Made by a program: the position numbers and the translations under genes. DNA of 64,000 nucleotides from Auricularia sp. M13. Taxonomy: Eukaryota; Basidiomycota; Agaricomycetes; Auriculariales; Auriculariaceae. Below, piece by piece: positions 26,578 through 64,000 of the stretch (within the stretch, counting starts at the first letter, position 1; each line of letters starts with the position of its first letter). The notes under the pieces are model-generated. The model was not told where the DNA came from, did not search any database, and was given only the letters and a program-made list of their open reading frames with translations. The stretch lies in assembly GCA_037042915.1 (NCBI GenBank), contig CM073194.1, positions 4,588,001-4,652,000 of the forward strand, written 5' to 3'.

Positions 26578-26838
26578 AACAGGGCAGGGATAAATGTGTT
26601 GCAAGCGTGCTTCTCCTACTGCTGAGGTCGATACGATGGAAGCATCGAACCGGAACACCGAGCTTTCCACAGGCGGCATGCGCAGGGCTAACGCCCGCTC
26701 ATAATTCGCCGAGACACAATCCTTATTACGGAACTGGAAGCTGAAAATCTGGGCGAAGGTATGCATTTTGAGACCTGATCAAGAAAGGAGAAACATGAAC
26801 ATAGGGTTGCGAGCATCGGGCCGCGAAGCACTGCATGC

Positions 26839-27497
26839 TTATGCTACTACTGAGGCCCACGATGGTAGCATCGAACTCCCTTTGCCCGTTGTAGCGGGCG
26901 CACCACTGGCAGGCTTGTCGATCACGACGCCCTCATCCGACTCATCCTTAGCGGCGGTGTTGTTGCGGACGTTGGTGAACGGAATACGGGGGAGAGGGAC
27001 AAAGAGCAGGCCGAGAAGCAGGCCGTTGAGTGCGCCGATGATCAGGCCGAAGGTGACCTGACAGCTGAGGGCGAAGAGTGAGCCAAGCAACGTTCTGGGC
27101 GAGGGCTAGCAGGTCAGCCGGGAGAAACGCAAATGTACAGTATGCGTAGGTGCTGACGCAATGGGTGCCCAGATGGCCAGAAAGATGGACGTCAAGATGG
27201 ACGTAGTCTGCGGCTGCTCCATAATTTGTGTCTTTGAGACGAAGTCATGAGAAACATGACGGGCAGTGAAAAGATTGCAGGGGACTCACGGGAGGGGGAG
27301 TGGGAGGGCCTATATATTTGCAGAATCCAGTCTTAGATCCTCCTGAAAAAAAGATAAACGTGTTGGGCAGTGAGGAGGATATAGGAATCACCATTGGTGC
27401 TGCAGAACCACCAGAGGAAGAGGGCGACGACGATAGTCACGAGGATGATATGACCGATGATGCGGCATTCCCTGCTGTCGCAGCTGTTGCCGGACAT
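26839..27497 (-). CDS. Small membrane protein with three predicted TM segments
   Basis: Four exons: 27497-27392, 27342-27290, 27213-27139, 27105-26839 (166 aa, phases consistent). N-terminal TM IIGHIILVTIVVALFLWWF after MSGNSCDSREC; a second hydrophobic stretch SILTSIFLAIWAPIASA; a long third one (LLGSLFALSCQVTFGLIIGA, continuing NGLLLGLLFVPL). The hydrophilic C terminus ends GKGSSMLPSWASVVA. Acceptor of exon 3 is ambiguous by six bases (27213 or 27207). No family recognised. A decayed copy of the last ~60 bp of its coding end seems to lie at ~26600-26660. Confidence 0.6.
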
Positions 27498-28110
27498 GGG
27501 ATGCGTGCTGGGGATGAGTGAGAGGGGATGGGGAAATCGGAGACTCCTCTGCCTCTTCTTATAAACTGCAAAAACCTGTTTCTGTGCCGTGTGACCATCT
27601 CCCCCATACGCACATGTTTCCCGCTGATCCAGAATGCGCCATCCGACGCGCTTCTTGGCGCGCGCCTGTCTCCTGCGCCATCCGCACGCGCTTTGTACAG
27701 GTTGCCATTCAATGCTTCATATTTGGTGCACGCGCCGCCAGCCCGCTCCCGAATCCAGGTCCAGATGCGCTCTCCGCGGGATCTGGGAATAAAGACACCG
27801 GTAAGCTCTGCGGAGTGAGCGCCGCGTTGATGAGCAGAAAAAAGAAACAAGCCTCGTGCCCAGTCGGGTTGTCGCCTCGATACTTGAGATGAAAGTTGTA
27901 ATATTGTTACCGACTTGTCCTGAGCGTAAATTGCCCCACGGACAGCACGAATTGCATTCAAGCTAATGGTCCCGCGTCGGCGAACTGTGAGCGGCGTCTA
28001 TCCAGTGGTCCTCGCCGTTATAAGAATGCGCACGCCGCGTGTCCGAAGCTTGGTTGATTCTTTCAACTAGAGCTAGAACCACGAACTGCGATTCTACTGA
28101 CCTATATGCC

Positions 28111-28118
28111 TACGTCAC
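28111..28118 (+). promoter_or_regulatory. TGACGT (CRE/ATF-type) site upstream of HSP9/12-like gene
   Basis: TACGTCAC reads TGACGTA on the other strand, ~90 bp before the ATG at 28209; TATATATC follows at ~28138. The arrangement resembles the promoters of the two canonical HSP9/12 genes in this window. Confidence 0.45.
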
Positions 28119-28208
28119 CACTTCGAACATGAGTGTGTATATATCAACGCACACTGTAATCGCGCACTCACTCCGTTCTCTCCCAACCAGGCCGCTCCCG
28201 GCTTCATC

Positions 28209-28920
28209 ATGTCTGAAGGCAGTCGTCGCCCGAGCGTTGGCTCGGCCGAGTCTAAGGCGAGCCTGCACTTTGGGACAGTCACAATAATATGAATCTTTCT
28301 GAGCTTGCGTCCTCAGCCCGATTCCGAAACAGCACTCGCGATCGCGCCGACTGAAAGTCCCGGCGACAAGTCACTCGTAAAGGTTCGAACTTCGTTTCTT
28401 GCTTTCAAATTTCGCCGATGACTGAGAGTGAGTCGTATGTTAGGCGGACAACGCCCCGGGCTCGCTACAGCTGCAGCTGCGGGGCGGCGGGCCCAGGAAG
28501 CTCGCCGACCCCGAGCCTAGCACCGACCCTGAGCTCAGCGCCGACCCAGCGCCCGGCGCGACCACCGGTCACGCTGCCACGGGCGGCGCTGGAGGGGCGA
28601 GCGGTGCGGGAGGGGCGAGCGGTGCCGGCGGCGCAAGCGGCGCAGGAGGGGCAAGCGGCGCTGGCGGGGCAGGAGCGGGGATTTGCGCAGGCGGAGGGAG
28701 TGGGTACGGCGGCGCGAGCGGGGCTGGCGGGACGAGCGGAGCGGGAGGCGCGAGTGGGGATGGGGGCGCGGGTGGGTCTGCCACGATCGGCGTCGGGGCC
28801 AGCAAGGACAACTTGAAGACGCCGACCAACACCGTGACCTCTTCGGTTGTGGGCAAGGTCAAGTCTGCGCTAGGGATGAAAGATGCAGATCCCAGCCCGG
28901 AGGATGCGCCGAAAAGCTGA
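28209..28920 (+). CDS. HSP9/12-derived protein with Gly/Ala/Ser-repeat insert
   Basis: Three phase-0 exons: 28209-28256, 28317-28382, 28444-28920 (196 aa). MSEGSRRPSVGSAES, PDSETALAIAP, ADNAPGSLQ at the start of exon 3 and SSVVGKVKSALGMK near the end are the HSP9/12 framework; DNA-x-GSLQ and KSALGM match the canonical genes directly. The middle is replaced by a ~70-residue GGASGA array with ICAGGGSGYGG in it, encoded by ~15-bp GC-rich minisatellite units (28580-28770). Intron 1 begins GC (AAG/GCGAGC), not GT; the minus-strand relative at 22922 has GT at the same spot. Expected to be disordered, with a membrane-binding C-terminal helix (inference). Confidence 0.75.
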
Positions 28921-29220
28921 ATCTGCTGGCTTCAAGCTTCATGTTCTGGTGACTGTTCGAAGTCAAGTGACGGGCGCCTAAAGTTGCGGAACTGGGTTGC
29001 TCGAAGATGCATTTCGCACAAATCCTGGATACTCTCTCAAGATCTCACCATTTGTCTTTGGAATCTGGGGTTTTTGCTTTCTTATGTCTTACTCAGAGGA
29101 ATACTTCACTTCTTCTGTTACGATTCAATTCGTTGATTTCAGCAAATCAAGTGTTACAAACTACAGCGAGTAGTGTAGACGGGTCAAATACGGGTGAAAT
29201 ACATGATACAGCGAATACAA

Positions 29221-29595
29221 TCAGTACCTCGGCTCGCGCGTAACCGGCTCATGAGTGCCAGTCGTGGTCGTGTTCATGCCGAGCGCAGACTTGGCCTTGT
29301 CCACAAGCGACGAGTTGTTGTTCGTCATCGCGTCGTTCTTGGGACCACCAGCGAAGGTGTCCCCGAGCTTCTGCGTGTAGCTCTTCTCGCTCTGCGGCTG
29401 CAGCGAGCCCGCAGCGTTGTCCATCTACAGCAGGCACCACCAGGTCTCAGCAAATAGCAATACGCCATGAGACTCTGAGAAACGCACCTTTCCGTGGAAC
29501 TTGCCGCCGAGATGCTCAGTCGTCGTCTTCTCGGAATCAGGCTTCACAAAGGCGCCGATTTTGTCGGTAAGGCTCTGGCGACCAGCATCGGACAT
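29221..29595 (-). CDS. HSP9/HSP12 family heat-shock protein, second canonical copy
   Basis: Two exons, 29595-29488 and 29424-29221 (103 aa). Exon 1 is 108 nt, the same as in the 12724 gene, and starts MSDAGRQSLTDKIGAFVKP; exon 2 has MDNAAGSLQPQSEKSYTQKL and SSLVDKAKSALGMN. The C terminus is 12 residues longer (TTTTGTHEPVTREPRY). Same single intron position. Encoded opposite to, and ~300 bp downstream of, the insert-bearing relative at 28209, so the two genes converge. Confidence 0.9.
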
Positions 29596-29676
29596 GTTGA
29601 AAGTAGATGAGAGTGGTTTGGGTAGATGAGAGAAGAGTTGTTGGGGTTGGGTAGTTGTGTGAATTCAGGGAAACAC

Positions 29677-43635: not shown

Positions 43636-44384
43636 TAGTCTCGTAACCAGCCGGTCGGGCAGCGGACTTTGAAACCCGGACACGTCCGCTTGCGGACCGT
43701 CTGGGACGAACGGGCGCGGTTTAGATATGTCACAAACGCAGATACTGAGCGTGACACGGGACTTAGCCAATTCGCACCCTCTTACCTCTCAGAAACATGT
43801 TTCCACTGACCATCTCAAAAACGAAAATTGGCAGGTTCTGAAGCAAATGAGAGGCACGATTTTAGTAAAATATCTGGGATAAATCAAGCTTCCAAGAGGT
43901 CCATACAGGTCTAAAAGTGCTCAAAATTAACTTGAAAGGTGCTACAAAAATGTGTAGCGGTGGCTGCATGTGCCAGATGCGGCGGCTTGGACAGCGGCTG
44001 GAGGTCATTCAAAGTCCGCACGGAGCCATCCTCAACCAGCCGACCTGGCTTCAGTCGCACAGCTGCGAAGGAACACGATTTATCTGAGCCGTTTTCGACC
44101 CTCTGCGGCCATGATATACTTATTTGAAGCTGAAATGCTCGGTTGAAGCTCACAAAAAAATGCAATATATGACCTAGCTAATTTGTCTCATATTCGTCTA
44201 AAATTCGTTCCTGTGAGGGTGCAGAGAAAACAATTTCTGAGTGAGGCGAGGGTAAGATTCGGTGAAGTCCTGTGTCACGCTCAGTATCAGGATTTGTGAC
44301 ATATCTAAACCGCGCCCGACCGTCCCAGCCGCTATTGAGGCGAGCCCCGAGCGGACTTCGAAATAGCGGCTGGTGACGAGCCTA
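43636..44384. mobile_element. 749-bp MULE-type MITE with 9-bp target duplication
   Basis: GCCCGTCGT occurs on both sides (43627-43635 and 44385-44393). Between them the ends form long imperfect inverted repeats: TAGTCTCGTAACCAGCCG at the left against TAGGCTCGTCACCAGCCG read inward from the right, and, ~85 bp in, a ~60-bp block starting GGGCGCGGTTTAGATATGTC that matches with few changes. Nine-base duplications and TIRs over 100 bp are Mutator-like features. The AT-richer core has no transposase. It ends 198 bp before the F-box gene ATG. Confidence 0.8.
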
Positions 44385-48239: not shown

Positions 48240-48760
48240 TGGGAGCCCGACGATGAACTTCTGTAAAAACCGACTTGCTGTATAGACTCGCTTCACGCTT
48301 TCAAAGGGCATCATAGGTATGATATTCTTCGTTTGAGCCGCGATAGTCCTTCATAGACTCCATAGCGCTGACTTGCCGCTCCACAGACTTTGGAGACGAA
48401 GCTTAGGTCTATAGGACAGTGCAGCGCCCAGCCTTCGTGCTCTCCACTGCTTTGGGAGATCCAATCGAATAACAAGTTCTCCAATTAGCTCAAATTTATT
48501 GCAGGCAGGCCCGCCCGATTTAAAAGGAAGATGGGACGTCTCCGAATGTTTGCAAGTCCTCTCGCTCTCCCCACCAACCAGCCAGTCCGAGGCGTGCCCT
48601 CATCGCAAGTCGCGGCACCACTCGTCAGGCCTCTACGTCAAGTACGTCGTATCTTTTTATCCTGTGCCGCTGTGAACTCACCAGTCTTCGTAGATTCGAG
48701 TACAACGCCTGGTCGTAGTCCTGAGAGGCTGTAGGGTGCGTCGTCAACACTCTCAGTCAA

Positions 48761-48806
48761 CTAGAATAATTCTGTGAGGCCTACAGGCCTCACAGAATTA
48801 TTCTAG
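48761..48806. repeat. Near-perfect 46-bp palindrome
   Basis: Arms CTAGAATAATTCTGTGAGGC plus CT (22 nt) pair exactly around an AC spacer. TGAGG/CCTCA elements repeat just downstream (48807-48825). The likeliest source is the joined ends of a decayed MITE; a hairpin RNA is possible. It lies in a non-coding region downstream of a short uncertain frame at 48531-48734. Confidence 0.6.
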
Positions 48807-49104
48807 TGAGGTTTTACCCTCACATGTAGGATAGTCTCACAGAGCCTTTTATTTCATTTTACCCTGAGATAAATCTCTTCGGCGACAGCTCGGCTCGAGG
48901 CGCAGCCGGCGCTTATTGCCACAATGCGTCGCTCATGCCCGCCGCCGCATCAAGCCCACGCCCGCCGTGATGATCATGCTCCGGCACTGCCGCATCAGCG
49001 CGTGGACTCGTCTCCACCGGCGCTTAATAGGTGCTGTTGTGTTTGTAGCTCACAACTCGTAACATCTTGCGCACAAAAATAATTTCCATGCACGTACCTG
49101 ACAT

Positions 49105-49462
49105 GGCAAAGGTTCCAAGTTGGCGGTGCGGTTCAAGGCGTCGGATGGGCAGCAACTTGATCAGGTAGCGCGCCACGTCGCGACCAGCGATGTCGAGTCC
49201 ATGGGTGAGATGCGCCAGTGAGAAACTATCGAATACGGGGTATGTGCGTTACACCGTCACCAGAATCAACGACCACTCCGGTGGTCAGATTCCATAACGT
49301 CAGTGAAATGAAAGCATGGTTGGTTTAATCCGCACCTAAGCTTCTCGTTGAAGGTGTAGTCCCAGAGATGCTTCATGACCTCCCAGTTGCGCACAGTGCC
49401 GTGCTCCATTGGCTCGTGAACCGGAGGAACTTGCGGTATTCCGCCGCCTCGTCGCCGACCTC
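49105..49462 (-). pseudogene. Relic of actin-related protein 2 (Arp2)
   Basis: Reading the minus strand: [16 protein letters not shown], then in another frame [20 protein letters not shown] + NEKL, a gap, [14 protein letters not shown], and [20 protein letters not shown] + LIKLL followed by a frame-shifted NRTANLE. These are successive pieces of the Arp2 core (functional Arp2 has a GDEA block, [34 protein letters not shown] and FNRTADFE). About 70 residues between NEKL and the SGDG block are missing and the frame changes at least three times, with a stop shortly after GVTHI. It is a decayed partial duplicate; the functional Arp2 gene must be elsewhere in the genome. Confidence 0.8.
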
Positions 49463-50150
49463 AATGCTGCCCCGGGAATGCGATCTAAATATGGCATGTA
49501 TGCAACGCCACGTTCGTCGCCAGGTTTACGCGGGCGGACGCACTCGAGTTCAGCGATACAGTGGCGCTAAGCCCTTCCTTGTACGGCGACGCCGTGTATG
49601 TAGCTGCTGCAAGGAGGGAGCTATGACGCGAGTACCAGCAGTGACTGCGGAGCAGCGCTCCGAATCACGTGACAGATCCAATCACTTCGGAGACCGCGCT
49701 ATCGAGAGTTGAACTCTGCCTACTGTGATATTCATAAATTGCGGTTTATTTGGTTCAAATCGCTCAGGCGGCGAGAGACATTGCCGATTTCGGACCGCGC
49801 ATTGGCGAGGAGCGCGAGCTCGCCGAAGTGCATACCGCGCACCCCGTGACCCACCTGCATCCATAACCATTCGACAGCGGGCTCGCCAGTTATGTCTGAG
49901 CCAACTTGTGCAATATTTCAAGACGCGATCGCGTCCAATCGAGCGTTTGGGTGTTGGTCGGTACGTCAGACAGAGCAAGGTGCCTTCCCACGACCTGGGC
50001 GTGCTCGTCTGGGCCCTTGAAGTTCACATAACGTACGCTGTTGCGTTGCTAGGCATGCAAAAGGCGAAGGAGAAGAGCGGAATTTCCTCCGGCATGATGT
50101 ACAGTATTTGGCTGTCAAGTCTGAGCTCGAACTCTCTCTCTCTGTCCACC
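49463..50150. other. Intergenic, nothing recognised
   Basis: About 690 bp with no family-like frame. The last 60 bp are CT-rich (CTCTCTCTCTCTGTCCACC) directly before the ATG at 50151, a typical fungal leader. Confidence 0.45.
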
Positions 50151-50744
50151 ATGAGCCACAGCGACCTCGCGCACGTCAACGAGCCCGCGCACGTCGCTCA
50201 GAGCACGCCCGAGGTGGCGCTCCCAGCGCAGGCTCAAGCTGACGGCACACCTGTGCCCGCGAACGCGCCTCGATACGAGCCCGATACTGTCCACGCTGGC
50301 GCACCGTGCGCGACGCCCCCTGCGCCACCCAGAGGTCACCACGCTGTGCGACGAGCTCGCGCCCGTGCAGGCGAAGACGAGGCTACCACAGGCGCTCGTG
50401 CTGACGCCGACCGCTCGTCTGGCGGCGTCCGTCCTCCCCGCTCGGCACACGGTGGAAATCGCGTTATTGCCTACAATGTACGTGCGTTAGACATGGAATT
50501 TCTACGCGTTGCTCACAGTATTTAGCCCATCAGCGTCCGCATCGCGAAGCTGCTGGCATTTTGCTACCTCGGCCGCGTTGCGGTCCCCGTTCTCGACATC
50601 GCTGCCGCCTTTCTTGTCGGCTACGCCGCGTACATCGCGTTCCTCCACGTGGAAGCGCTGAACCACGCATTGCTGGCCATATCGGCGATTCTCGCTTTCA
50701 CCAGCTTTGAGCTCGAAAGAATGGCCGAGGAAGGACTCGTCTGA
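50151..50744 (+). CDS. Small protein with two C-terminal TM helices
   Basis: Three phase-0 exons: 50151-50252, 50335-50481, 50526-50744 (155 aa). MSHSDLAHVNEPAHVAQ start; second exon VTTLCDELAPVQAKTRLPQA; third exon with two hydrophobic stretches (VAVPVLDIAAAFLVGYAAYI and HALLAISAILAF) and an acidic end FELERMAEEGLV. The first intron (82 bp, GTGCCC...AGAG) has a weak acceptor but is needed to reach the protein-like frame. No family recognised. The CT-rich leader upstream fits expression. Confidence 0.5.
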
Positions 50745-51590
50745 GTTGTGTGCAATGCAAATGTCGCTCCGTTTCTTGATACTTTCCGCATATGTCCCTG
50801 CTCGTCTTATGTTTGCCTGACTGCTCAATGAATTGGGATTTTCTTGGAGTCGGTCGGTACTTACCGTCGTTATCGATGTGTCTGCCTTTCGATTTATCTT
50901 GCTCTTTGAACGGAAGCGTTATGTTGAGGGTAATGGTCACCAGCTGTTGCACGATGTACTGCTGCCTTGCTTGTATCACACGAGGAAATCAGTTGAAGAG
51001 TAGAATAATGAAACGTGAGCTCGACGTGATGAAATCTTATCTATCCGAGAACGCACCGTTCCGATATCAGACACAGCACAGATGCACGGTGTCTTCTCGT
51101 CTCGCTTCCCGCAAACCAGAGCCAATGTCTAACGAACGATTAGCGCTACATCCCACAAACTGCGGCCACGCTTCGCATTTTCCCAGCGCGCGGGCGCGAT
51201 GCGCGTATTGTCTGCCGCGTCTCCTCCACGCACCGCGTCCTCTACTAACCGCAAGTACGTCTCAGGCCGCGCGATCTCTCTGTGCCGCAAGCCGATCTGC
51301 TCGTCGCGCCGCCCGAGGCACGCCTCGAGATCGTGTGCGATCTCGTGGTGGGCGCGCACGCTGCAGCGTACCAATCTGCGCCGGCTGCGCGGCGCACATC
51401 TTGCTCGCTGATGGTTCCTTGCAACTGTGCAAGCACGCCTCTAGCCAGGCTTTTTCATCGCCGAAAGCCTTAAGCTACAGGGAAGCACTTGCCCGACTTA
51501 GAGACTGGTATTCAAATACATAGCCGCGTGGGAGAGCGAGGCAAAAGCGCGCAGGATGAAGAATCTGTAGTTCTCCCTAATCCACGTCCA
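50745..51590. other. Intergenic, weak open frames only
   Basis: 846 bp. A plus-strand frame at 51282-51473 (ADLLVAPPEARLEIVCDLVV) looks somewhat protein-like but has no start or exon chain I can defend. The KDZ stop codon bounds the stretch. Confidence 0.4.
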
Positions 51591-54500
51591 CTATATGGTG
51601 TCAAATGGAGAAACGGCGTCCGGTAGACTCATTGACTTACTGTCGTCATCGCGAGCGCTTGCTTCGCGAATATCGCTCGGCGGCAACCATCTCATGAAAT
51701 AGCGCTTGCCGTCCTCCAATTGTGCGCTGAACTGAGAGGCGCGACTTGTAATGCATTAGACTGTCTCCAATCAAGAATATATCATACTCACCGTGCGCAA
51801 TACGCATCGAAGCCCGTATTGTCACCTTGAGAGCCGCGACGAGCCATCCACGATTTCTCTTGAAAGGCGAAGAAACGCAGCGTGCGCTTCATCTCCTCAT
51901 CGAGCAAAGCGACCTCCTCAGTCCATCTAGCAACCCGGGCTGCCGCTAGATTATGTTCCACCTTTTGTACTGCGCAGCTACTCGTCAGCGCGCCGCCGAA
52001 TACAAGAGAATGGGATTCGAACCTTCGTCCGCCCACGAATCGAGCTCGCGCTCGGGTACTGCGTCGCTGTCTCCCACCTTCCCCCATATCCAAGACACTT
52101 TATTCTTGCTGTAACCCATGTGGGCGCCACGCATGTCGAGGTTCCTGACGTCGGCGTCTTCGAGCTGTCGAAGATGCGGTGCCATCTCACCGCCGCAAGA
52201 TGAGAGACGTTGAAACACAACGTTGTAGTAAGCGTGCCAATGCTTCACCGAGAAGCTCGCGCGCTCTGTCGTTTTATGGGACTTTGTTTTCTCGATGATA
52301 CCTTTTGGGCGCCGAAACTCGAGAAGCGTGCGCAATGCGATATATCTCCGCAAGGACTGCACCGCCTGGTTTGCCATGGCCTCTCGGAGTTCCTTTTCCA
52401 ATGCGAGTAGCTCCTTGAATGGATCGAGGCTTGAGACGTCGTCTTCCGATATGTACGCGCTGGGAAAACTCAGTACGATGTCCTCGGGGAGGATGTTGTT
52501 CTCCTCGTCGACGTCCTGCGCGTCTGATGATTCGCTAAGCTGGAAGAGAGTGGCAAACGTAGATCGTTGCCAACTTGTCCACGCGCGAATGCGACGCGCG
52601 AGCACATTGGCTTGGGCGGCAACTTCGTCGTTCTTAGCATCGGTTTTACTACTCTCCCTCAACAGTCGAAGGAGAACTCTGCATGGAATATTAGTCAGAT
52701 CCTACGGATAGATTATTACGAGAATATTAGAGACCCACTGCTTCTCCTCTATGTCAAGTCCCACTTTGATCAAGTCCACGACACTCTTTCCGCTGCCAAT
52801 GGCGTCGTCCAGCGAATGCACCGTCGGTCTTTCCTTCAGAGCGGTTTGAACCTGCTTCGCCGTAGGTGCTTCCCAGTATTAATCCACAAACACTACGACG
52901 ACGACGTTGTCGCTTACCTTTTTCCTTGGACACCTGGTACGGGCACGGCATGTCGGGCCGCGAACCATCGCCATGTACAATGCCTGCCGTCCACTTTTTG
53001 ACCTCGTCATCCCAAATTTCCAGGGTCTCATTATTCATGGTATCTCGCAGGTCGGAAAGGTATCGACTCTGCGCGCTGAGCTCAATTCTCGCGGCTTTCA
53101 GCTTGGCGTCGAGGTACGCGGCTGTGGGATCTACCTTGAGCTTTGTTCCTTCAAAGATGGTGTACGTACCAATATTAACCGTCTTCCGCATGTTCCAGTC
53201 GGAAAAGTGTTCGTTCATCATGTCCTCTCGAGCACCGATGCCCATCTCTTGAATGCTGGGCCCGATCTTGCCTTCCACCGCCCAAACGCGCTCGGGATTA
53301 TCGCCATCCATTTGAGCGGCACCCGGTAGTAGATGGGCGTCCCGAAGTTGCCTACAGTCGTCCTTGTGATTGAGGATGTGATACTTCCCTATGCCGGTAA
53401 TCGTCTTTGGCCACTTCGTCGCCACGTCGGGATATGCCGAAGTGATCGCAGGACTCTCGTCAATTCGCTTCTTGAAGTTCTTCCACCACTGGCAAACGAT
53501 GTCGTAGAATTGAAAGAATAGCAGAAGTTCCAGGTATCTGTAATGCGAGCTAATCACGGCGAAATCGACGTTCGCGAATCTGCATTGCATTAGAAGGTAA
53601 TATGCACATTTCCACTGGCGTACCTCTCGCCCTTCACTAAATCAGATGTTCCATTTGCTTGGAAGAAGTCGTGGCGACAGATATGAGAAACTATTCCGGA
53701 TTTAATTCCGCGATAATCGACGGCTTTGAAGTTGTTACAACCCAGAGGCTATCACAATGTTAAGCAAGCGAACGTGGACGAAGAAACAGCTTACAACGAG
53801 ATCGGACATCGTGTTTAGCATGAGCTCGCGATTCTGGAGGTAATGAACGAAGTACATCGCGTTCATCGTCATTGGCAGGTCCTCTTGGTCCATTCTCTTG
53901 TTCTTCTGTCCCAGCGTAAAATTTCCATCTCTTGTCGAGTACAACGCATCCAGAAACCTGTAGGCAAGTTAGGTTGAGAGGAGATCAATCCTGAAAAGCG
54001 TACCTCAGATGTGGCTCGCGCTCGCGCCATCCGGGCGCCATGTTGATGCCTGGCTGAGGGCACGCAGGACAGAACACAGCCATACATCCAGGTTCTAACT
54101 CCGTGCCGGGTCCCGGAACACTGAGAGCGTTGCGCTTCAAGTTTTTGAGGTAACAGTACATCCGAAAACCCATAAAGAACTCGCGCGCTCGATCCTAGTC
54201 CGCAAATGAGTTACTGTTCGAACATTGCCCGTCATCTCACCTTGACCGTCTCCACCGCCAGGTAATTCGTCTGGCGGCGGAGGAATGTGCAGTAGCCGCT
54301 TGCTGTGACCTTGGTCGTCAATGTCAACAGATGAAAACTGCGCAGCGCGGCAACAGTTATGACGCTCTTGGGCCGCTTGAAGGAGGCAGGGAACAGGCCC
54401 GCACGCCACAGCTTCATGGCCGAGTCACCAACAGCACCTGTGTCTCCGCAGCGGCATGGTAATACGTCCATCTCCCGAATACCTCCCGCGTGGACGATGG

Positions 54501-55168
54501 TCATTTTCGTTGGGACTGAGGATCCACCTGAAGGACAGGGATCGCCGTCATGCCCGATATGGATGACGAAGTCGAGCTCTGCGAGAGACACCTTTCTCAA
54601 GAAAGTACCGGTCCAGTGATGGACGTCGTGAAAAGGTGAATGCTTGTGAGCATCCCGCGTGCACTCCTTGCACAGAGGGGGAGCTTGGAAACAGTCGAAG
54701 CATTTGTACAAAGCCGAACGATCACGAGGAGCACACCCGCGGCACTGGCTTCCGAAGCGAGAGTCGAACTCGCGTTCGTACATTATCCCAAGCATTGAGG
54801 TCGCCCAGTTGTCCTTGAATTCCGTCAATACCTGTGACGGTTTCTGAGAAGCTGTTTTAGCTGTCTCGCGCGCGCCGCGAATATCTGGGACGTACCTGGG
54901 ATCGGTTGAGAGTTGGTATTTGCGGAGGATGCGTTGCGGGGGCTGCAATGGAATTCGCCTTCGTCGTAGAGGATCCTGCACGCGGGATGCTTCGAATGGG
55001 TTCGAAGGCGGTCAAAGCAGACGGTGGCGTCGCAACTGGTGCTCTTCGTTTAGTGGGAAGCTCGCTTTCACCCATCAAATCGAGACGCTGATAACCGCTG
55101 ATACCATGTCGCGGCACGCTCTTGACGGGGAGCTCGTCAATGTCGGCCTGTCGCTTTTTTTTGCTCAT
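51591..55168 (-). mobile_element. KDZ (Kyakuja-Dileera-Zisupton) DNA transposase gene with CxC2-like cysteine cluster, intact
   Basis: Ten exons: 55168-54896, 54843-54241, 54194-54004, 53957-53795, 53748-53624, 53579-52918, 52868-52739, 52678-52023, 51969-51792, 51744-51591 (1044 aa; every junction GT/AG and in phase). The N-terminal ~90 residues contain KKKRQ and are basic/Ser-rich. Residues ~125-210 are the CxC2-like cluster (QCRGCAPRD, KCFDCFQAPPLCKECTRDAH, DVHHWTG). Then CPACPQPGIN, GCNNFKAVDYRG and the catalytic core: YDIVCQWWKNFKKR with the first Asp, YHILNHKDDCRQL, LLPGAAQMDGDNPERVWA with the Glu, EMGIGAREDMMNEHFSDWN. The C terminus is coiled-coil/helical. It looks fully functional. 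I could not see terminal repeats, so the element limits are unknown. Confidence 0.88.
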
Positions 55169-55275
55169 CGTCACGGTGGTAAGTGGACAAAGGAATTGAG
55201 AACACACGAAGCGCGTTGGACCACGACCAACTATCGATTACATTGTTTAGTCGGGCCGATGCCCGGGACACGAGG

Positions 55276-57857
55276 CTACTTCTTCCCTTTGCGCTTCGTG
55301 ATTTTCTCACCCTTCTCTCTGCGTGGAAAGATCGTTAGACCGAATTCGCCATTACTCGACGACTCGTACCTCGCTTCACCTGCGGATCTGACCTTCTTCC
55401 GCGGATTCGCGCTCGTATTGGCTTTACGCTTCTTCCCAACAGTTGCGGGAACGTCGGACTCGTTTGGTATTCCCGCGCGCTGGATGGCCACAGAATTCGG
55501 GGTTACTCTAAGGATATATGAGATCAAAAACGCGCAGAGAACAGACGAACGCACGCCGAGCAAAGGTACGCTAGTAGTTCAGATAATTCTGAGACAAGGG
55601 CCATCGCATTCGCGGTAGGATGGCGCTGCGAAAGCACGAGCCTTTGTTCAGTGCTGAGCATCCAGGCGACTCCAAAGAGCAGGCTGACGAAGCCGCGGGT
55701 CCCGACGTGATGAAGGTTACCATAATTTCGTTTGTCGACCGAAGCGACCGGCGGGAGAGAGGAAAAAGACTGTTCTTCCACTGCTCGTTCCTTGGGCTGA
55801 AGCGCAATATACCACGACATAAATTGGTCGTGGAAGCCGAAGAGATTGTCGTCGCTGGGAACTTCATGCCGCTTCGTTGTCCAGGCCTTGTAAGCCTCAG
55901 GACGCTTTTTAATAGGAATGAGGGTCTTCGGAAAAGTGAGAAACGTGTATTCCGGACATTTTCCGGGTGCCTACCCTCTTGATCTTGACCGAGTTGCGTT
56001 CGTACTCGACCCAAGCCTGTACGAGTGAAACCCAGTCTTCCGAACCGTTGATATCCAGAAGAAACTTGGTGTCACTCTTCATCCACTTGAGATTGTTTGG
56101 TAGCGCCGCCAGCTCGCCCAGTATCTCTTGTTTGCGTATTGCAATCGCAGAACACGGGTCGGTGTCGATGTCTCCCGCGGCGGTGACAGGGTCCTCAGGG
56201 TGCCGATCGGTGGCTGTGCCGAGGTACTTGACGGCTTGTGTTCAGTCAGTTCGCGCTGCGACTCGTCAGAATTAAGGATAACTCGCCTGGCTCGTGCGAG
56301 ACGCGACGCGTTTCCATCGTCGTGTCATTCTTGAAAGGGCCCTTAGCTGCGTTGAATTTCGCGCCTCAGCGTAAGACAAGTTGAAGCCGAGTCTACGCAC
56401 CTGAGACGTCCAATTCCAAGTCGGTATGAGACGTGACTTCCTCCATTTCAACATCCCCTGCATTGAATTCCGCGCATCAGTGTGGGAAAAATCAAAGGCG
56501 ATTCTACGCACTGGAGACGCCGCCATTGCCGAAGTCTAAATCAGTATGAGACACCATTTCCTCCATTTCAACCCGAGTCTCGATGGAATCGCCTGAGCAA
56601 TGTTAGATTGCGGACAGCGTGCCATCGGAAGACGCACTGTTAGCGCGTCGATCGGCATCCTCTGAGTCGTCTACTGTAGCCTGTGACGCTTGAGTGACGG
56701 GCTCGATCCCCTCGCCGCCGGGCGACGGAGTACGAGAGGGTATGAATCTGTCGCGGTCTTCCCTGGCTATCAGTATGTATGCGGCAAGGCTACGTTGAAA
56801 TGTTTACCGTGCTGTCCCTCGTTTTGATCGTCTGCGGATATGTTCGTAAATCCCGCAGAGATAGACAGAACAACTGCGCGCACCACCCGAGAGCTTCTCA
56901 TAATGCTTCACGAGTGCGTCCTCCAGTTCGAGTCGGAGCTGACGTCCTCGATCGCTGAACCAGAATTTGTAGTTACTGTCGTGAACACTGCATTTGATGA
57001 GACGCAGAACAGCGACTCGCAATGAGATGGCGCTCACCAGCCGACAACGTTGTTGAAGTTGCTCTCCTGCCCGACGAACATTGCGACGATCGTGAAGCCT
57101 GTCAGGGACGACATATGATCCACCTGCCTGCTCAGCGTCTCCTTGAATGCCTGCTGCATCCTGAAATCGCGGATAAGTAGAGACGTCGCGTCGGGAGGAA
57201 GATCATACAGAATGCGCTGGGCGTCTGCCGCACGTTCGTCGACCCTATCTCCAGAGGAATCGTCCTTCGCCGGCAACTTCTCCTTCCTGGCTCGCTCGTG
57301 CTCGGCCTTGAACTTGTCGTATTCGTCTTGATTATTCTCGATATACTTATCCAACGCGTTGTTCCAGATGCGAGAACGGTCCCCCGCTTGCACCTCGCCG
57401 CCGCCCGTGACAGACTCATAGGCACGCGAGAGGTCGTCCTTGTGAATGTCCGCGAACGCGAGCCGCGCGGGCTGTGCCTTTTTCCCGGTCTGGGGAGGTA
57501 GGAGCAAGGTTTCGATCGCCTTCCCGGTCACCGCGGGCTTCCTCTTCGTCTTCCTGTCGTTCTTGATTTTGTTCTGCCAGTACTGAATGACCATGAGACT
57601 CGAGCAATCTGCGAAGTACATGCGGTCCGGAAGTATTCACGCACCTTCGTCCACCCTTTGTCATCGCCGCCAACGATGTCGGGAAACGTAGCCTTGAAGT
57701 CAGCGCTGACCTCCTCGACGAAAGATTGCAGGCCTCCGTGACCGAACCTGTCTTGCGTCCAGCGCGCGTCAGCTTGCCATTTGCCAAGGAACTGATTCTT
57801 CTGGTCCTCCGCGAGCCTGTTCCAGATCTTCGTCCGGCTGTCGTTCGCCTCGGACAT
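55276..57857 (-). CDS. Agaricomycete repeat-associated protein with C-terminal NLS
   Basis: Starts at the ATG 57857 (MSEANDSRTKIWNRLAEDQK, ARWTQDRFGHGGLQSF). Next block ends at 57034: YWQNKIKNDRKTKRKPAV, LSRAYESVTGGGEVQAGDRS, FTIVAMFVGQESNFNNVVG. Then short repeated exons (56.3-56.6 kb). Then AALPNNLKWMKSDTKFLLDI, DWVSLVQAWVEYE, and 55925-55570 with PIKKRPEAYKAWTTKRHEV, FMSWYIALQPKER, GTRGFVSLLFGVAWML. The last exon 55507-55276 is basic: GKKRKANTSANPRKKVRS ... EKITKRKGKK, a nuclear signal. The order W-x-ALQP-x-x-R then GG/GT-RGF-x(5)-GVAW marks a large family of uncharacterised proteins found next to KDZ and other repeats in mushrooms. Several middle exon limits are approximate. Confidence 0.6.
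56347..56572 (-). repeat. Tandem duplication of an exon-intron unit inside the 55276-57857 gene
   Basis: Two ~110-bp units (56347-56452 and 56458-56572), ~75% alike. On the coding strand each holds a short exon, VEMEE-x-x-SHTDL-x, a GTGCGTAGA donor, an intron and a CAG acceptor. Splicing both gives a protein with two successive VEMEE..SHTDL modules, followed by a third, looser METRRVSHEPG. Confidence 0.6.
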
Positions 57858-58110
57858 GCTGAAGCAGAAGGAGGGGGATCAGGTTGCCGGGACTCGCGAG
57901 TAAACCGCGATTTCAAGGCGGAGCCCAGAGCTGTGCAGCGCATTATCATCTATAAGCCTCTGCAGTGTTTGCCGACTTACATTGTCTCGCAGCCAAGGAG
58001 CAATCCAGCGGGAACATCCCGGACTAAGGCAACGCGCGAGAAGTGATCTGCGTCACTCGTCCGTGAGACCGTTATAATCCAGAGCTTATTGTTGCTAAGC
58101 ATGCTGCGCG

Positions 58111-58621
58111 ATGCCCACTCTTGATCTCCCGAAGGCGTCCGCGCTGACCGCCGAGCTGCTCGGTATTTGGCAACGCCCTAAAGACGGCGACGTATTCGTT
58201 GTAGGAGTTTCCGCGCAAATGGGGTCGCACCCTGCGCTCATTCCGCCGGAAACGCACGAGTTCAGGGCCGTTTTCTATGCGGAGTGAGTTGTTGCTTGTG
58301 AGATGTAGAGTGAGACACTTACCGAGTTCAAGAACTCTTGAGGAAGCTCGACTCCAGCTTCTCACGTGGAAGTTCTTCGCCCAAAAACACAAGGTGCGTC
58401 GCGCGTGAATTCTGTTCCTGGAACAATCAGCAAACGTTGGTCAGATTGAGATGTTCCTTCCTGTTCGGTCTGTGGCTCTCGCGCGTCATGGGACGGCTAG
58501 CTACGTGAGGGAGATTCAGAGAGAGGACGTGGCTGCGTGGGTGTTTGAAAACGGACGCTGGAAAGGTCGAGAGCGTCAGTGGTGTCTTCAGCGAACGTCC
58601 GCATACTGGTCGGCGCCGTGA
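58111..58621 (+). CDS. Small unidentified protein in the KDZ island
   Basis: Three exons: 58111-58283, 58333-58393, 58445-58621 (136 aa, phases consistent). Reads MPTLDLPKASALTAELLGIW, DVFVVGVSAQMGSHPALIPP, FRAVFYAETLEEARLQLLTW, then IEMFLPVRSVALARHGTASY and ends QWCLQRTSAYWSAP. Probably an alpha/beta fold with a Trp-rich end; no catalytic motif or TM. It diverges from the 57857 gene with 253 bp between start codons. No family name known to me; it may be a companion of the neighbouring repeat-associated genes. Confidence 0.55.
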
Positions 58622-59288
58622 ACCAGAGTTTCATCGTAGATTAATGAACAAAAATGGACATGCGGTCACTGAGCGCTCATCGTCCGAGAAAAAAAATTGA
58701 GACGAATGGATTATGATACGAAAGATTACAAATGGCACGATGGACGCTACACAAATTACAGGTGAAACAGATTAAGACAAAAGCAGACAGCGGCAGAACA
58801 GGGAACCTTCAGTGGAAATAGGTCAGCGAGGGAGGATGTTGGCCAGACAGTACAAGCGTACCAGACACGGCGCGTTGGACGCCAAACGAAGCACCTCCCG
58901 AGTCGCCCTCGACAATAACCTGGGCAACTGATGAGGAATGGTGAGCGATATCGTTATAAACATAGCACTGGAGGCGACGCGCCTTGATGCGCCAAGCTGC
59001 AGAGCTGGATGGGCGATCCTAATTTCGCGAACGGCTGCGACGGCGCAATGAAGCTGCAAAGCAGGAGTTAATGAAGCCCGATGCTCCGTAGCGATGAGCC
59101 AACCTTCATCGGCGCCCTCAAGCGGGCGACAAGCGCACCCAGCTCGAATGAGCTGAGCGCGTGGTGCTGATATCGCCCAATCATCGCAGTCGTGCGGGTT
59201 CCGCGTGCTGGCGCGACCTGTCGCGTGCTTGGGCAGCGCGCGGTCGAATACGATTGGCCACCTCCGAATGGAAGCAGCCAGGTGCTGA
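58622..59288. other. Intergenic, nothing recognised
   Basis: About 670 bp. Minus-strand frames here (to 59365) have no family likeness. An A-rich stretch at 58688 is the only feature. Confidence 0.45.
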
Positions 59289-59589
59289 CGCAGGCCCCGA
59301 ATGAGGCCTGCGGCGGTATATGCTGATTCGTGCCCACGAGGTGAAGACGATTCGAAGACCGACAACTCCGATAGCTCGTCTCTTCCTCTCTCTGATCAGC
59401 GCGGCACCGAACAACACCCAACAACGGTGAAGGCCTCATTCGAGGCCTTTATCTTGGTATCATAATCTGTGTGCCCTCATTCGAGGGTGCACAACCGAAC
59501 TCCTGGTCGCTCGCGTGCGCGCCGAACCCGCGCTTGATTCCATCGCGCTCATCACTGTCACCAATAGGCAAGGGCTCATTCGAGCCCTT
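59289..59589 (+). other. Four hairpins sharing a CTC-ATTC-GAG loop
   Basis: AAGGCCTCATTCGAGGCCTT (59430-59449), CCCTCATTCGAGGG (59474-59487) and AAGGGCTCATTCGAGCCCTT (59570-59589) are perfect stem-loops with the same ATTC loop and different, self-complementary stems. A fourth, CGCAGGCC/GGCCTGCG at 59289-59312, shows the same loop (TCATTCGG) on the opposite strand. They lie in the 360 bp upstream of the ATG at 59646. Transcription-factor half-site pairs, a structured 5' leader, or transposase binding sites are possible. Confidence 0.65.
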
Positions 59590-59645
59590 GTCCAATTCTC
59601 CTTCTTTGTCTCGCCTTGTCCCTGGATCTGGACTTCTAAGACGCC

Positions 59646-62600
59646 ATGTATCACTCGCGACGAGGCGATCTCGACGCCCCCCCAGAGCTTATCCCAGGGT
59701 CCCGCCCTCGCACTCCCTCGGAATCTTGGCCCAGCGATATCAGGACGGTATCATACGGTATCGGAGATGGTCAATACGTAGCCTCTCTGTGCGTGAATGC
59801 TGCCATACCCCAGCTCCCACCGCCCGAATTCCCGCGTCCGCGAATCGATTACCGTCTTGGGCCTCATGAACCTATGCTGTACCCGCAGATGTGGGTTAGC
59901 ACAGCTCCGCATATGGCCTGGATCGAGAAACACGAGCTCCATCGCGAGCTGCATCAGAAGAACATTGTGGGCTACGTCTTCCAGTCTCACGACTGGAAAG
60001 CGCTGTCAGACGGCGCTGCGTACGGAAGGATCTCAAGAGAGCTTCACTCAAGGCTCAGCGAGGCCTTCTACGATATCCATCTCCGTGTGCTTCCCCTCCT
60101 CTCGGCCGCGCGAACGAGACACCTGCTGCCGACAGCTACCATCACAGAGTGCATACGGCTCTTGTCTGACCTCCATACTCTGGCCGCGACATTCAAGGAA
60201 TCGGCCCTCTTGGTCACGCGAGTACAGAGAGGCATTGCTGAGCTTCGCGCGTTTCGACTTTTCCGCCTCGACGTACAGCATCATGTACACGATCCTCTGT
60301 TCGTATCTGATCGCATGTTCAACCTCGTCGGCGTTTTCACGTCAGATGCAACAATGGCAGACATGTTGCATAGACTCGGAATTCCCGCGTATCGCGTTCT
60401 TCGCGGGCTTCCCAAGAACATCAGCCGCAGTAATGTGAAGCAACCGGCTCTATGGCGAAAAGCAGTAGAAACGCAGCCGCTCGATTCCTTAGAGCATTAC
60501 CACTGGGACGCGTACGGTCGCCGTCATCGGGATCGTCGTGAGGTTTCTCCACCGACGACTGAGATGCGCGAGACGGACGAGCGTGCCGAACCTGAAGCTC
60601 GATCTGGTCACAGTCGTGCCCACTCTCCTGCCCGAGGGCGCCAGCCGAGATATTCAGCGTATGTGGAGGAAGACCCAACGCCGCGCCCATCTCGCCGTTC
60701 TCGTTCTCCGCCGCCGTCGTCGTCATCGTCTCGCCGCTCTCAATCGCCAAGATCGGCGCGAGCGTCATCGCGGGGCGACGTGGCGCTGAACAATGTCCTA
60801 CCTCGGTATATTCTCCACGAACAAGCCCGAACCTCAGGTTCGTGGTTTGCGATTCATTGAACAGGTGACGGGACTGAGTTTCTCTTAGATCACGAGCCGC
60901 GAAGACACCCCGACGCGCCAAAGCAATGGCGCCCCAGAACATGGTCCACGGATCCTGGCCACCAGGCGACAGAGCATTTTGCCTTGCCAGAGTGGGTCCC
61001 TCCGCTACCGCGTTGGATGACGGACGTCGCAAACTCGGTAGATCGCTCGGTGACTCGAGAGTGGCGACTTTGCGCCGACGATACCCCGCACGCCGTTCCG
61101 CAGGACGTATTTACGCGCCCGTTGGAATTCGCATTACCCCCGTTGCATCTCATCTTGAAGCACGAGAAGAGGTTCATGTTCGTCATGAAAGCTTGGGTCG
61201 CACTGCGCGACTTCTGGCTGCGAAAGATAATGACCGATTATTCGTGCGGCCTCACAGCCTCAGTCTGGCGCAAGATCTTGGACGACAAGTATCACATCGA
61301 TCGGGAGCTCGCGAACTGGATCGAGGAGCACGGGCCTGAGGACGACGGTGACACTGCCGCGGGCGGCGAAGGCTCTCATACGCCGGCGCCTCTGACGCGA
61401 GGTGAACGCGAAACCCTCGAGAAGAGGGTCACCAGCCTCTCCGAGCAGCTACATGTAGCGCTCGCCCAGCAGGATCCGCACGCGGGGGAATCCAGAGTAG
61501 ACGAATATACCCGAGTCCCATACCCCGGCGATGACCTTCCCGCGACCTCATCGCGCAGAGGTAGAACCAGAAGGCTGGTTAAACATGGTTCCGAATCTGG
61601 ATATTTTCTTCGAGGTGGCGGCGCGCGCATGGTACTCATGGATGCCGTGGACTTCCCCACGGTCTCCTCGTCGTCTACTCTCTGGGACGAATACTGGGAC
61701 TACGATATGAAGAGAGTCTTGCTCTTCAATCGTTTCTCTCGCGTCCCCGACGGCATTCAAGATCAACGCGACAAGGAGATCCTGCTGACCGACGTCATCA
61801 CGTGGCATCAGTCACGTGACGACGAATGCGGTCTCAGCCCCGCGTCTCGGGCCATGTGGAAAGCGCTGACGCCGCTCGTAACGGTAAGTTGGGCTCGCTC
61901 AAGTACATGTTTCTCATACTTTGTGCAGAATTCCGAAGGGAGACTCGTTCTGTACAGTCGCGCGAAGATTGCGCTGACGGTGCGTGCCGAGAAAGCTGAG
62001 AACCTACTGATCATCTCACATTTGCGCGATCTCAGGTTTCGGAATCTGACCGTGGAGGTTCAGGACTGCACGCGATGCCGTCTGCGAGCGACTTGGAGGC
62101 TGAGACCGGTCAGGGTGTGCGTCCCTCGATGAAGTCACATCCCCGAACTCCCCCGCCTGATCCCGTCTATGGGTATAACCGCGAGCTGCCGAATGGCCAT
62201 TCCCTGAAGGAATTCGTCATCCGCCAGCATCTCTTGAAGCCGTCTGACCTGAATCGCCGGGAGGTTCGCGCTTTTCTCATCTGGGAGTTGGAGGAAGCAG
62301 GATTTCGGTTCCAGCTTCGTCGTACGGACACCACCGTGCTCAAGTCCATGAAAATCTGGACTCCTGAGATTCAAGCCGAGCGCGACTCTATCCTGCAACA
62401 ATGCTGGGGCGGAGATGACGGCTTTGTGCCTTCCGGGATGTCCACACCCGCGCAGACCGATCCCGATCCCGCAAAACGCCTCAGTTCCATATATCATTTT
62501 TGGAAGCTCGTTCGAGCTTGGCCGAGGTGCCGCGAAGTTGCCAACTTCAGGCGCTTTACGACGCATGAAGGACTGACGATGGACCAACTTGTGCAGGTGG

Positions 62601-62713
62601 AACGCGATGTCTGGAAGTTCTATGCACAGACCTTCTACGACTACTTTGGCATTCTTCCCACCCTCCCAAGATCAATGCCGAATCATCCCTTCTCCAACAC
62701 TGTCTCGACGTGA
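59646..62713 (+). CDS. Large agaricomycete repeat-associated protein
   Basis: Four exons: 59646-60837, 60889-61883, 61929-61979, 62036-62713 (971 aa, phases consistent). MYHSRRGDLDAPPELIPGS start; conserved middle FNLVGVFTSDATMADMLHRL + GIPAYRVLRGLP, the V-G-x-FT ... GIP-x-x-x-LR motif of a very abundant mushroom family; a Ser/Arg/Pro-rich disordered linker (PRPSRRSRSPPPSSSSSRR); then ALPEWVPPLPRWMTDVANS, FVMKAWVALRDFWLRKIM, coiled coil ETLEKRVTSLSEQLHVAL, and a C-terminal globular part (VDFPTVSSSSTLWDEYWDYD, RVLLFNRFSRVPD). The 45-bp intron at 61884 is a multiple of three, so reading through keeps the frame. Biochemical role unknown; association with repeats suggests a mobile-element accessory (inference). 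Confidence 0.75.
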
Positions 62714-62883
62714 TGTAACCAACCGCTTAGGCCATAGCAATTCCATTGTCTGCATGTCTCCCGCTACGCTTATCATCGGCAAGGCATCACGCCATCCAGC
62801 GAGGAGAATCCCGTCGTCACCGAGCTGCGCAGATCGCCGCGTGAGCTCGGAAAGCAGGAGAATGCAAAGCAGCGCGCCGCGGC

Positions 62884-62890
62884 TATATAA
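62884..62890 (+). promoter_or_regulatory. TATA box of the zinc-finger gene
   Basis: TATATAA 75 bp upstream of the ATG at 62965, followed by a CTCTCTCTCTC leader just before the start codon. Confidence 0.55.
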
Positions 62891-62964
62891 ACCAGCTATG
62901 ACCTGCGCTTTCCGTCAGACACCCCTCTCTCTCTCTCTCAGCTCTACGACGCACATCGGTGGCC

Positions 62965-63872
62965 ATGGAATACGCGCGCGGCTATGCCCACGGACTCGCT
63001 GGTCCCGAGCCCGTCATCAACGACTTGGACTGCACTCAATGCGGCAACAAGCGAGTCGCCTTCCTCATCAAGTTCCAATGGAAGCCCCAGGACAAGAGCG
63101 GCTTTGCCAATGTCGGTCGATACTACGTCCTGGTGAGACTCGCGTTCGTATTCCACGCGTTAATACTGAATTTCTATGCTAGTGCCTCGCTGGCAAAGAG
63201 TGCAAGCCTCGATTCGTGACTGACGCGAAGTCCAAGCCCGCTCTGGAGGCATACGAGAAGGTCCACGACGAGTACGTCAGGTGTTCTCTCCCTCTCGCAG
63301 TTCCTATACTGATTGTATTGTAGATGCGTTCGTAACGCTAACAGCGAGACCAACGCGCTCAAGGAGAAGAAGAAAGCCGTCACGCTTGCGTTCAACGCTG
63401 CGCAGGCCGCTGCGACGGCCTCCGAAGGCGTCTCCGAGGCCGCCGCCGAGCTCGCTGAGACCGCGAAGAGGGCTCTCGCGGTGGCGAAGACCTCTCTCCA
63501 GGCCACGTCGCTCGTCTCGTCCAAGATCAACGGCACCACGCACGTCGTTCGGCGCCGTGCTACTGGCGCTCGCCCGCGTGCCGCCGAGGCCAGCTCTTCC
63601 AGCCCCGCCAAGCGCAAGAGCGACGGCGATAGCAGCCCGAGCGCGCGCGCGAAGCGCGCCAAGGTTCAGCCTGAGGCGTCGTCCTCGAAAGGTTCGCATT
63701 GATTCTCTCTCTGTAACCACATCTGGCTGACATCGACATTGCAGGCAAGTCGCCGAAGGCTGGACCTTCCAAGCTCCCGGTCAAGGTCGAGACCATCCGC
63801 GGCGAAAAGGTGTACGTGATCGACTCCACTGACGATGAAGTCGAGCGCCGCGACCTGTCCCCCGAGCTCTAA
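62965..63872 (+). CDS. GRF-type zinc-finger protein with NLS and SUMO-interaction-like motif
   Basis: Four exons: 62965-63132, 63183-63280, 63324-63691, 63745-63872 (253 aa, phases consistent). Residues ~22-66 form a GRF-like finger: C-x2-CG (CTQCGNKRVAF), NVGRYYVLC (the G-R-x-Y/F core) and C-x4-F (KECKPRF), with Cys ligands at each corner. A long Ala-rich coiled coil follows (KEKKKAVTLAFNAAQAAATA). Then a basic signal PAKRKSDGDSSPSARAKRAK, and near the end VYVIDSTDDEVE, a textbook SUMO-interaction sequence (hydrophobic V-I-D followed by acidic residues). GRF fingers bind single-stranded nucleic acid. Together this suggests a nuclear factor targeted to SUMO-marked sites, as the last gene of the KDZ island. 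Confidence 0.75.
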
Positions 63873-64000
63873 TGCTAGATACGAAAACTTGCCCTATGCG
63901 TCCCTCACAATAAGATCTTTGCTGCTGCCTTGATGCAATACGACTTGCGTGATTCCGAGCTGTACTGCAACATTCCCAGGATCTGATGAAATGAGATGAA

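Follow-up and report, generated by a model that had tools for sequence, protein, structure and literature searches.

KDZ transposases were defined by Iyer et al. 2014, as cited in Kojima 2025 (PMC12730594). The available text of the latter characterizes the Kyakuja branch by 7-bp target-site duplications and 5'-CA..TG-3' termini, and describes two Kyakuja families of Laccaria without terminal inverted repeats. Here, we describe a related system in a stretch of 64,000 bp, hereafter the window, of Auricularia sp. M13 (C2:4588001-4652000 of an analysed genome of 52.1 Mb in 14 contigs). One 16,450-bp transposon spans window positions 48745 to 65194, its right end lying 1,194 bases beyond the window, and encloses six genes, which are F, KDZ, B, C, D, and E. 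Judging from the sequence, this element is almost certainly a mobile DNA transposon unit, and it is very probably a multi-gene member of the KDZ superfamily that most resembles the Kyakuja branch. A sequence-only reading of the window had placed the start of the unit at 51591; the start was instead found at 48745, which brings in the sixth gene, F, and the end at 65194 falls outside the window.

Boundaries and ends of the element

The boundaries have been obtained by comparison with a second, inverted copy at C6:163502-180602, which was found by searching the genome with D. The alignment of the C2 and C6 regions is a single block with abrupt ends, covering window 48745 to 65194, with 97.2% identity where aligned; in the D search, the exons of the C6 copy are 96-99% identical. 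The C6 copy is flanked by the 7-bp duplication CTAAAAT (in element orientation), while the window copy has its own duplication, as listed here with the body and the left terminus:

48745..64000, plus strand: transposon body inside the window, from the breakpoints against the C6 copy; it continues to 65194 (L041:1194)
48738..48744, no strand: GCGTCGT, left copy of the 7-bp target-site duplication, repeated on the right at 65195-65201 (L041)
48745..48805, plus strand: left terminus CAACACTCTCAGTCA, then a palindrome at 48762-48805 (20-bp arms, loop TACA), from the breakpoints and the left-end comparison

The element begins with CAACACTCTCAGTCA on the left and finishes with TGACTGAGGNGGCTC on the right. 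The same end sequences terminate a diverged relative, present in two copies on C9 and C11, whose alignable internal stretches share 70-87% identity with the window copy. Between the C9 and C11 copies, the identity is 99.2% over 14.4 kb, which argues for recent movement. When up to one mismatch is allowed, 15 left-end-like places (0 in the backward control) and 36 right-end-like places (13 in the backward control) are found in the genome. These form 11 end pairs in the correct order within 23 kb, and four left ends are without a listed partner. A perfect 7-bp duplication flanks nine of the 11 two-ended copies of the window type, each with a different sequence (GCGTCGT, CTAAAAT, GGCCATT, AGATACT, TTCCGTT, CAATTTT, TACGACT, CCCAATC, and GTCAAAA). 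Five of these nine copies are 1.4-3.3 kb long, with the same ends but too small to hold the gene set. As for inverted repeats between the two ends, the window type has just an inverted motif of 11 bp that is inset from them. A target duplication of 6 bp, which was the first reading, was rejected because the base preceding CAACAC is T, C, or A among the copies, so this base belongs to the target and the duplication is 7 bp. A Helitron was also rejected, given the target duplications and the presence of a KDZ gene. Exact target duplications of this kind could be used as markers of recent movement in other strains.

A stable gene cluster that was copied together with its neighbourhood, or one that arose by chance, would be immobile, and the finding of a single near-identical full copy (on C6) is what such a segmental duplication would leave. 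This explanation is nevertheless extremely improbable, since the exact ends are common to diverged relatives on other contigs, the 7-bp duplication is different at each of nine sites, and short copies share the ends.

A genome search for a second, empty version of the C6 insertion site returned only that site's own two flanks. Rejoining the flanks gives an open frame across the junction of 99-100 codons at C6, C7, C9, and C11, and of 70 codons at C2. As a sign of broken genes, these frames are weak evidence (300 GC-rich bases, with two frames at C7) and are not relied on.

The left-end palindrome was examined in an alignment of 10 chosen left ends (A4). The left ends of C10 and C8b, in which the palindrome is shortened, were excluded, as were C12b (palindrome shortened or absent), C1:7352k, and C5:3284k. 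Changes on both sides are seen in nine of the 14 pairs, and two of the five measures are not clearly above shuffles (53 and 377 of 500 as high). Possibly, the transposase binds the palindrome as a paired site. A sequence resembling the left end, with one mismatch, has been observed at C5:3284044. A full-length KDZ domain follows 1.2 kb downstream, and no D was found in the vicinity; this is perhaps a D-less relative with similar ends.

Genes of the element

All exon models are simple-script predictions from the sequence. The six genes, with the ratio of nonsynonymous to synonymous substitution rates (Ka/Ks) among the evidence, are:

50055..50744, plus strand: gene F, small protein whose last exon is hydrophobic (model; similarity on C9)
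51591..55168, minus strand: KDZ transposase gene with a CxC2 cluster, 10 modelled exons, 1,038 amino acids, open (Pfam match, Ka/Ks)
55524..57857, minus strand: gene B, basic protein of nuclear localization signal (NLS) type, modelled at 641 amino acids, 3' end uncertain (model; at least 7 genome loci)
58111..58622, plus strand: gene C, small protein, last exon uncertain (partial open model; relatives)
59646..62713, plus strand: gene D, 954-971 amino acids depending on one exon (model; occurs in both element types)
62965..63872, plus strand: gene E, 243 amino acids, cysteine motif and NLS-like tail (model; loci at C2, C6, and C8 only)

The KDZ protein matches the Pfam KDZ domain (PF18758) over positions 3-217 of 217 with 117.4 bits (cut-off 26.6), and the CxC2 domain (PF18803) with 72 bits (cut-off 27). 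The cysteine cluster adjoins the KDZ domain, and the D.NF and YD..C.W motifs are kept. A GE in the C7-type protein corresponds to GD in the window, C6, C9, and C11 proteins and is followed by a shared E; these are candidate catalytic acidic residues. The full-length KDZ gene with its CxC2-like cluster that had been read from the sequence alone is thus borne out. The four companions of that reading have spliced open models for B, D, and E and only in part for C, while the label of GRF finger for E has been dropped, as it has no Pfam support at E<=10 and the cysteine pattern was seen by eye only.

Diverged relatives of B, C, and D are present at C9, C11, and C5, which indicates that these are real genes and not chance frames; relatives of E are found only at C6 and C8. 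The first 78 residues of C are 41% identical to those at C9 and C11, with further relatives at C5 and C8, and the last exon of F is 71% identical to C9 over 72 amino acids. A 161-bp stretch of F that is single in the window copy (50136-50296) has tandem extra copies at C6:178544-178866. Pfam searches at E<=10 gave no match for the N-terminal 252 amino acids of B, the first 78 of C, D (three exons), E, or F, and exon pieces of B, C, D, E, and F gave none at E<=0.01. In the PDB, neither profile searches with two segments of D nor a sequence search with E returned a meaningful match.

For D, pairs of copies in which synonymous change is unsaturated (Ks 0.75 and 0.33) give a Ka/Ks of 0.09, and the more diverged computable pairs give 0.06-0.20, many pairs being saturated. 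Near-identical pairs give 0.32-0.41 with few changes. Two copies of D with stop codons (L023 and L038) were excluded from the alignments (A1 and A2). By these ratios D is under purifying selection, as is KDZ, with a Ka/Ks of 0.14 between C2 and C6. Between the same two copies, the amino-acid-changing and silent changes number 7 and 4 in D and 1 and 3 in E, which, together with those in B (given below), are too few for conclusions. In 500-base steps, the C2 and C6 copies are 82-98% identical over 48745-54244 and 99-100% identical over the remainder, a mosaic that likely reflects recombination between copies or relatives.

Linkage of the companion genes to KDZ

The genome searches scored the best 150 of 163 KDZ candidates and the best 47 of 117 D candidates, and the counts are therefore lower bounds. 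D is expanded in the genome (at least 22 loci, including fragments and one distant relative with 24% identity), B is modest (at least 7), and E is rare (at least 3). For the linkage test, KDZ rows were hand-picked from the exon-level table and compared with 2,000 random placements, with approximate lengths for C3 and C13. A KDZ match lies within 35 kb of 18 of the 22 D loci (random mean 2.5, maximum 9), and at 16 of the 22, D and KDZ read away from each other (random mean 0.6, maximum 4). B adjoins D in divergent orientation at all seven of its loci, and it was found only with the window-type D and in C8 fragments. F matches are found in the C2, C6, C9, and C11 elements and beside a D fragment on C7 (1.9 kb away), and also without a known D at C8:1018653 and, weakly, at C9:3217193.

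The sequence-only reading had suggested that the companions travel with KDZ, and had named two outcomes that would speak against it: companions lying far from KDZ genes, and ends enclosing only 51.5-55.3 kb. Neither was found. Since the duplication-flanked ends enclose all five genes plus F, and D and B show the linkage described above, the companions do travel with KDZ; they may also act in transposition.

A cluster of element fragments with D, B, E, and F matches and element ends, and with no KDZ match, has been observed at C8:1.02-1.19 Mb. It includes a 22.9-kb stretch with both ends and no target duplication.

A second element type with inverted repeats

A copy at C7:440636-463555, delimited where its similarity to other copies stops, represents a different type of element. 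It has inverted repeats of 76 bp at 93% identity and the ends CAATGG...CAGCTG, with KDZ ~0.5 kb from the left end and D ~0.6 kb from the right end. Ten two-ended copies of 22.7-28.1 kb and one of 4.7 kb belong to this type, and each of the ten long copies has a KDZ match and a D match near opposite ends. A perfect 7-bp duplication is present in 10 of the 11 two-ended copies, and the remaining one matches at 6 of 7 bases. The end pieces compared are mostly 94-100% identical to the C7 copy; lower values are found for C2:126k, at 82% in its right piece, and for C1:75k, at 68-82%. In the genome, nine D loci are 17.1-18.1 kb from a KDZ match. The left end of the C7 element (C7:440206-440658) shows an F-box-like match that is weak and stays below the cut-off (E 0.0024), with the rejoined flanks open.

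The two types share D and not their ends, so D is a useful entry point for studying their movement. With their exact ends and a conserved companion, KDZ elements of 15-28 kb are delimited here, and the orphan family D gains a place and a testable role.

Hairpin arrays upstream of D

The window element has an array of short hairpins in the region upstream of D. Hairpins were identified by a loop scan that calls for an ATTC or ATTT (ATTY) loop and at least 10 of 12 pairs:

59134..59314, minus strand: three ATTC-loop hairpins (59134-59161, 59254-59281, 59287-59314), from the scan and covariation
59426..59593, plus strand: three ATTC-loop hairpins (59426-59453, 59467-59494, 59566-59593), from the scan and the fold z-score
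49251..49278, minus strand: isolated ATTC hairpin, 10/12 pairs, from the loop scan

Each of the six array hairpins forms 11 or 12 of 12 pairs in a stem of ~12 bp, and the last plus-strand hairpin ends 53 bases ahead of the D start codon. Many of the hairpins are marked by the 10-mer CTCATTCGAG, which occurs 129 times in the genome (48 in the backward control). Just upstream of a D are 31 of 100 listed places, with both element types represented, and the stems at these sites differ in sequence while the pairing is retained, often by G.T. In the D elements, 18 of 22 sites have at least 7 pairs beyond the 10-mer's own three; the other four have 2-6, one of them near KDZ and not D, and six control sites elsewhere have 0-5.

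Covariation was measured in an alignment of 16 sites that had been selected on the 10-mer, irrespective of their pairing (A3). Six copies with stems identical to C7 sites (L093, L096, and L098-L101) and the unpaired L102 were excluded, while one C8 site (L016) and the window site at 59296, with a mismatch in the 10-mer, were included. In this alignment, 93.9% of cells are paired against 64.2% after shuffling, and all 9 outer pairs have changed on both sides. The covariation is 0.781 against 0.218 in shuffles (0/500 as high) and 0.12-0.21 with slid partners. A model built from these sites found related ATTT-loop hairpins upstream of D in C9 and C11 (best E 4e-5). Three delimited elements contain 24 ATTY hairpins in 54.7 kb (10, 7, and 7), against 1 in 80.6 kb outside. 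None was found in 33 kb around eight D-less KDZ genes, although 3 of these 8 stretches do not extend upstream of the gene and the start positions of the eight are not established. Control loops occur 0-2 times per sequence, apart from GAAW, with 6 in the window that are partly the same palindromes on the other strand. With any tetraloop and 11/12 pairs, the window gives 28 rows; of the 11 that fall outside the element, none is ATTY. Chance hairpins are rejected on the covariation, the stem extension compared with control sites, and the enrichment inside elements. No Rfam match was obtained at gathering scores across the window, or at E<=1 in 59050-59660. The arrays are therefore an independent, strongly covarying signal without an Rfam match, and they make RNA regulation in a DNA transposon testable.

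The loop differs between lineages. ATTC is the loop of the whole window array and of every one of the 7 C7 hairpins, and ATTT that of all hairpins found at C9, C11, C5, and C1:4708k. Of the ten ATTY hairpins in the window element, a single one, near the right end, reads ATTT. At the scan threshold, the arrays count 3+3 hairpins in the window, 3+2 in C7, 3+2 in C9, 2+2 in C5, and 3+1 in C1:4708k. Extra hairpins occur at 64342-64494, close to the right end of the window element, and, in C7, immediately upstream of where KDZ likely starts.

Hairpins of this kind could act as DNA, in a cruciform or single-stranded form during movement, for example as binding sites of the transposase or of D. The covariation of the left-terminal palindrome and the symmetric layout of the arrays agree with such a role. 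On the other hand, the sixteen sites have 24 G.T against 5 A.C cells on the ATTC-reading strand (p 0.0005, an optimistic value as the copies are related), which indicates that one strand folds, as is typical of RNA. The ATTC-reading strand also points outward in the arrays of the window, C7, C9, C5, and C1:4708k, the exception being a weaker hairpin beside the C9 and C11 arrays (C9:408008). A DNA role thus appears unlikely, though far from negligible, and the hairpins probably act as RNA. The RNA fold of 59390-59645, before D, has z = -6.4, and the minus-strand side is 4.3 standard deviations below shuffles. At the seventh pair, counted from the loop, T.G is the most frequent combination (6/15 in A3, and also in a set selected by pairing).

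For Dicer products, stems of 12 bp are short, and the constancy of the loop letters is as expected of a recognition site. Both points make it quite improbable that the array is a small-RNA precursor, whether for host silencing or element-made, and not a binding site, even though fungi produce small RNAs from hairpin loci (PMC9757828).

Proposed mechanism

In the proposed mechanism, the KDZ protein would cut at the conserved ends CAACACTCTCAGTCA and TGACTGAGGNGGCTC in a cut-and-paste manner, with the palindrome and subterminal repeats serving as putative KDZ binding sites, and the element would be joined to 7-bp staggered cuts in the target. D, which is kept in two types with different ends, would be an accessory protein for transposition or its control; we consider such an accessory role rather likely. 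B and E may be nuclear helpers, and F is predicted to be a small hydrophobic protein. CACTA/MuDR-type elements, with a second protein beside the transposase, are a model for an accessory DNA-binding protein, and D may resemble it by analogy only.

The hairpin array would probably lie in the leaders of two divergent transcripts, D rightward and B or another gene leftward, a placement that is drawn from the distance to the start codons. There, it would be bound as RNA by an element-coded protein, setting the level of D. Binding of the hairpins by an element-coded protein is possible, if somewhat doubtful. More tentative still, and leaning towards unlikely, is the broader proposal that D-bearing elements carry their own structured-RNA control, in which two or three hairpins are arranged each way from a central bidirectional promoter, an element protein (D being the first candidate) recognizes the AUUC/AUUU loop, and the loop letter and the protein co-change between lineages. 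If true, such a control would represent a form of self-regulation that is new among eukaryotic DNA transposons.

Several observations weigh against this account of a mobile unit with a working D and a working array. Two of the 11 two-ended window-type copies have no target duplication (C8b, the 22.9-kb stretch, and C12b, a 61-bp remnant), and the KDZ gene of the C6 copy has a 2-base deletion, while that of the window is open. Four of the 22 D loci (three on C8 and one C7 fragment) have no KDZ match within 35 kb. The element copies are related, so the linkage and hairpin counts are not independent events; the independent point for linkage is the presence of D in two element types whose ends differ. 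D is without a Pfam or meaningful PDB relative, and AlphaFold2 gave low confidence for it, with a mean predicted local distance difference test score (pLDDT) of 47.7 for the N-terminal part (10 rows) and 47.3 for the C-terminal part (8 rows). The CTCATTCGAG site at C1:78796, inside an element and near KDZ, has no extended stem, and in the C7 copy the array precedes D by ~2 kb. Among the 95 KDZ loci counted, the majority lack a neighbouring D, showing that D is not required by KDZ elements generally. Finally, B shows 9 amino-acid-changing changes against 1 silent change between C2 and C6, with no constraint visible.

The last two observations also favour the explanation that only KDZ and the ends matter, and that the element took up D, B, C, E, and F long ago as passenger cargo, as do the restriction of B to the window-type D and C8 fragments and the presence of E at three loci. 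A gene serving neither the element nor the host is expected to decay, whereas D is strongly purified (Ka/Ks 0.09 at Ks 0.33 and 0.75) in two types with different ends. Passenger cargo is therefore an unlikely explanation, though one that keeps some weight, and we favour D as an accessory protein that may have a role in transposition.

Other features of the window

Long inverted repeats of 74-346 nt that are 73-89% complementary occur at window positions 12704-29615, 23090-28794, 25858-26577, and 43698-44331 and are perhaps other transposons. At 18924-21224, neighbouring frames match a SET domain (just above the cut-off) and a microbial-type PARG catalytic domain.

Comparison with known systems

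Starship giant transposons of the Pezizomycotina are likewise large multi-gene DNA elements of fungi. In the sources available, they are classed by a tyrosine recombinase, whereas the elements described here have a KDZ transposase, a length of 15-28 kb, and a fixed gene set. Closer in its transposase is the report on KDZ and Plavaka elements of Marasmius oreades (PMC8290104), likewise a KDZ-rich mushroom genome in which terminal repeats have been characterized; the accessible part of that report does not name companion genes, which are present here. In the titles and abstract openings of the literature surveyed, the companions and hairpins are undescribed, and an earlier mention in Iyer et al. 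2014 is possible.

Zisupton and Dileera belong to the same KDZ superfamily as the element. They are given 8-bp duplications in the available text of Kojima 2025 (PMC12730594), in contrast to the perfect 7-bp duplications found here in 19 of the 22 two-ended copies.

TET/JBP genes were considered as cargo and rejected, since none of the 19 PF12851 matches in the genome (4 over the cut-off) is inside the delimited D elements. By eye, four of the 19 are 9-26 kb from other KDZ matches.

The 7-bp duplications point to the Kyakuja branch, although not all Kyakuja features are found. As far as Kyakuja is described in the consulted sections of PMC12730594, the KDZ transposase, the 7-bp duplications, and the 5'-CA start are common to both element types described here. 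The 5'-CA..TG-3' termini are matched by the inverted-repeat type (CAATGG..CAGCTG), while the window type starts with CA but ends with TC. In comparison with the Laccaria Kyakuja families of the same source, the second type here has inverted repeats, 76 bp long in the C7 copy. The elements described here differ further from Kyakuja in that they have no TET/JBP match within their delimited bounds and in that they carry D, to which the window type adds B, C, F, and E.

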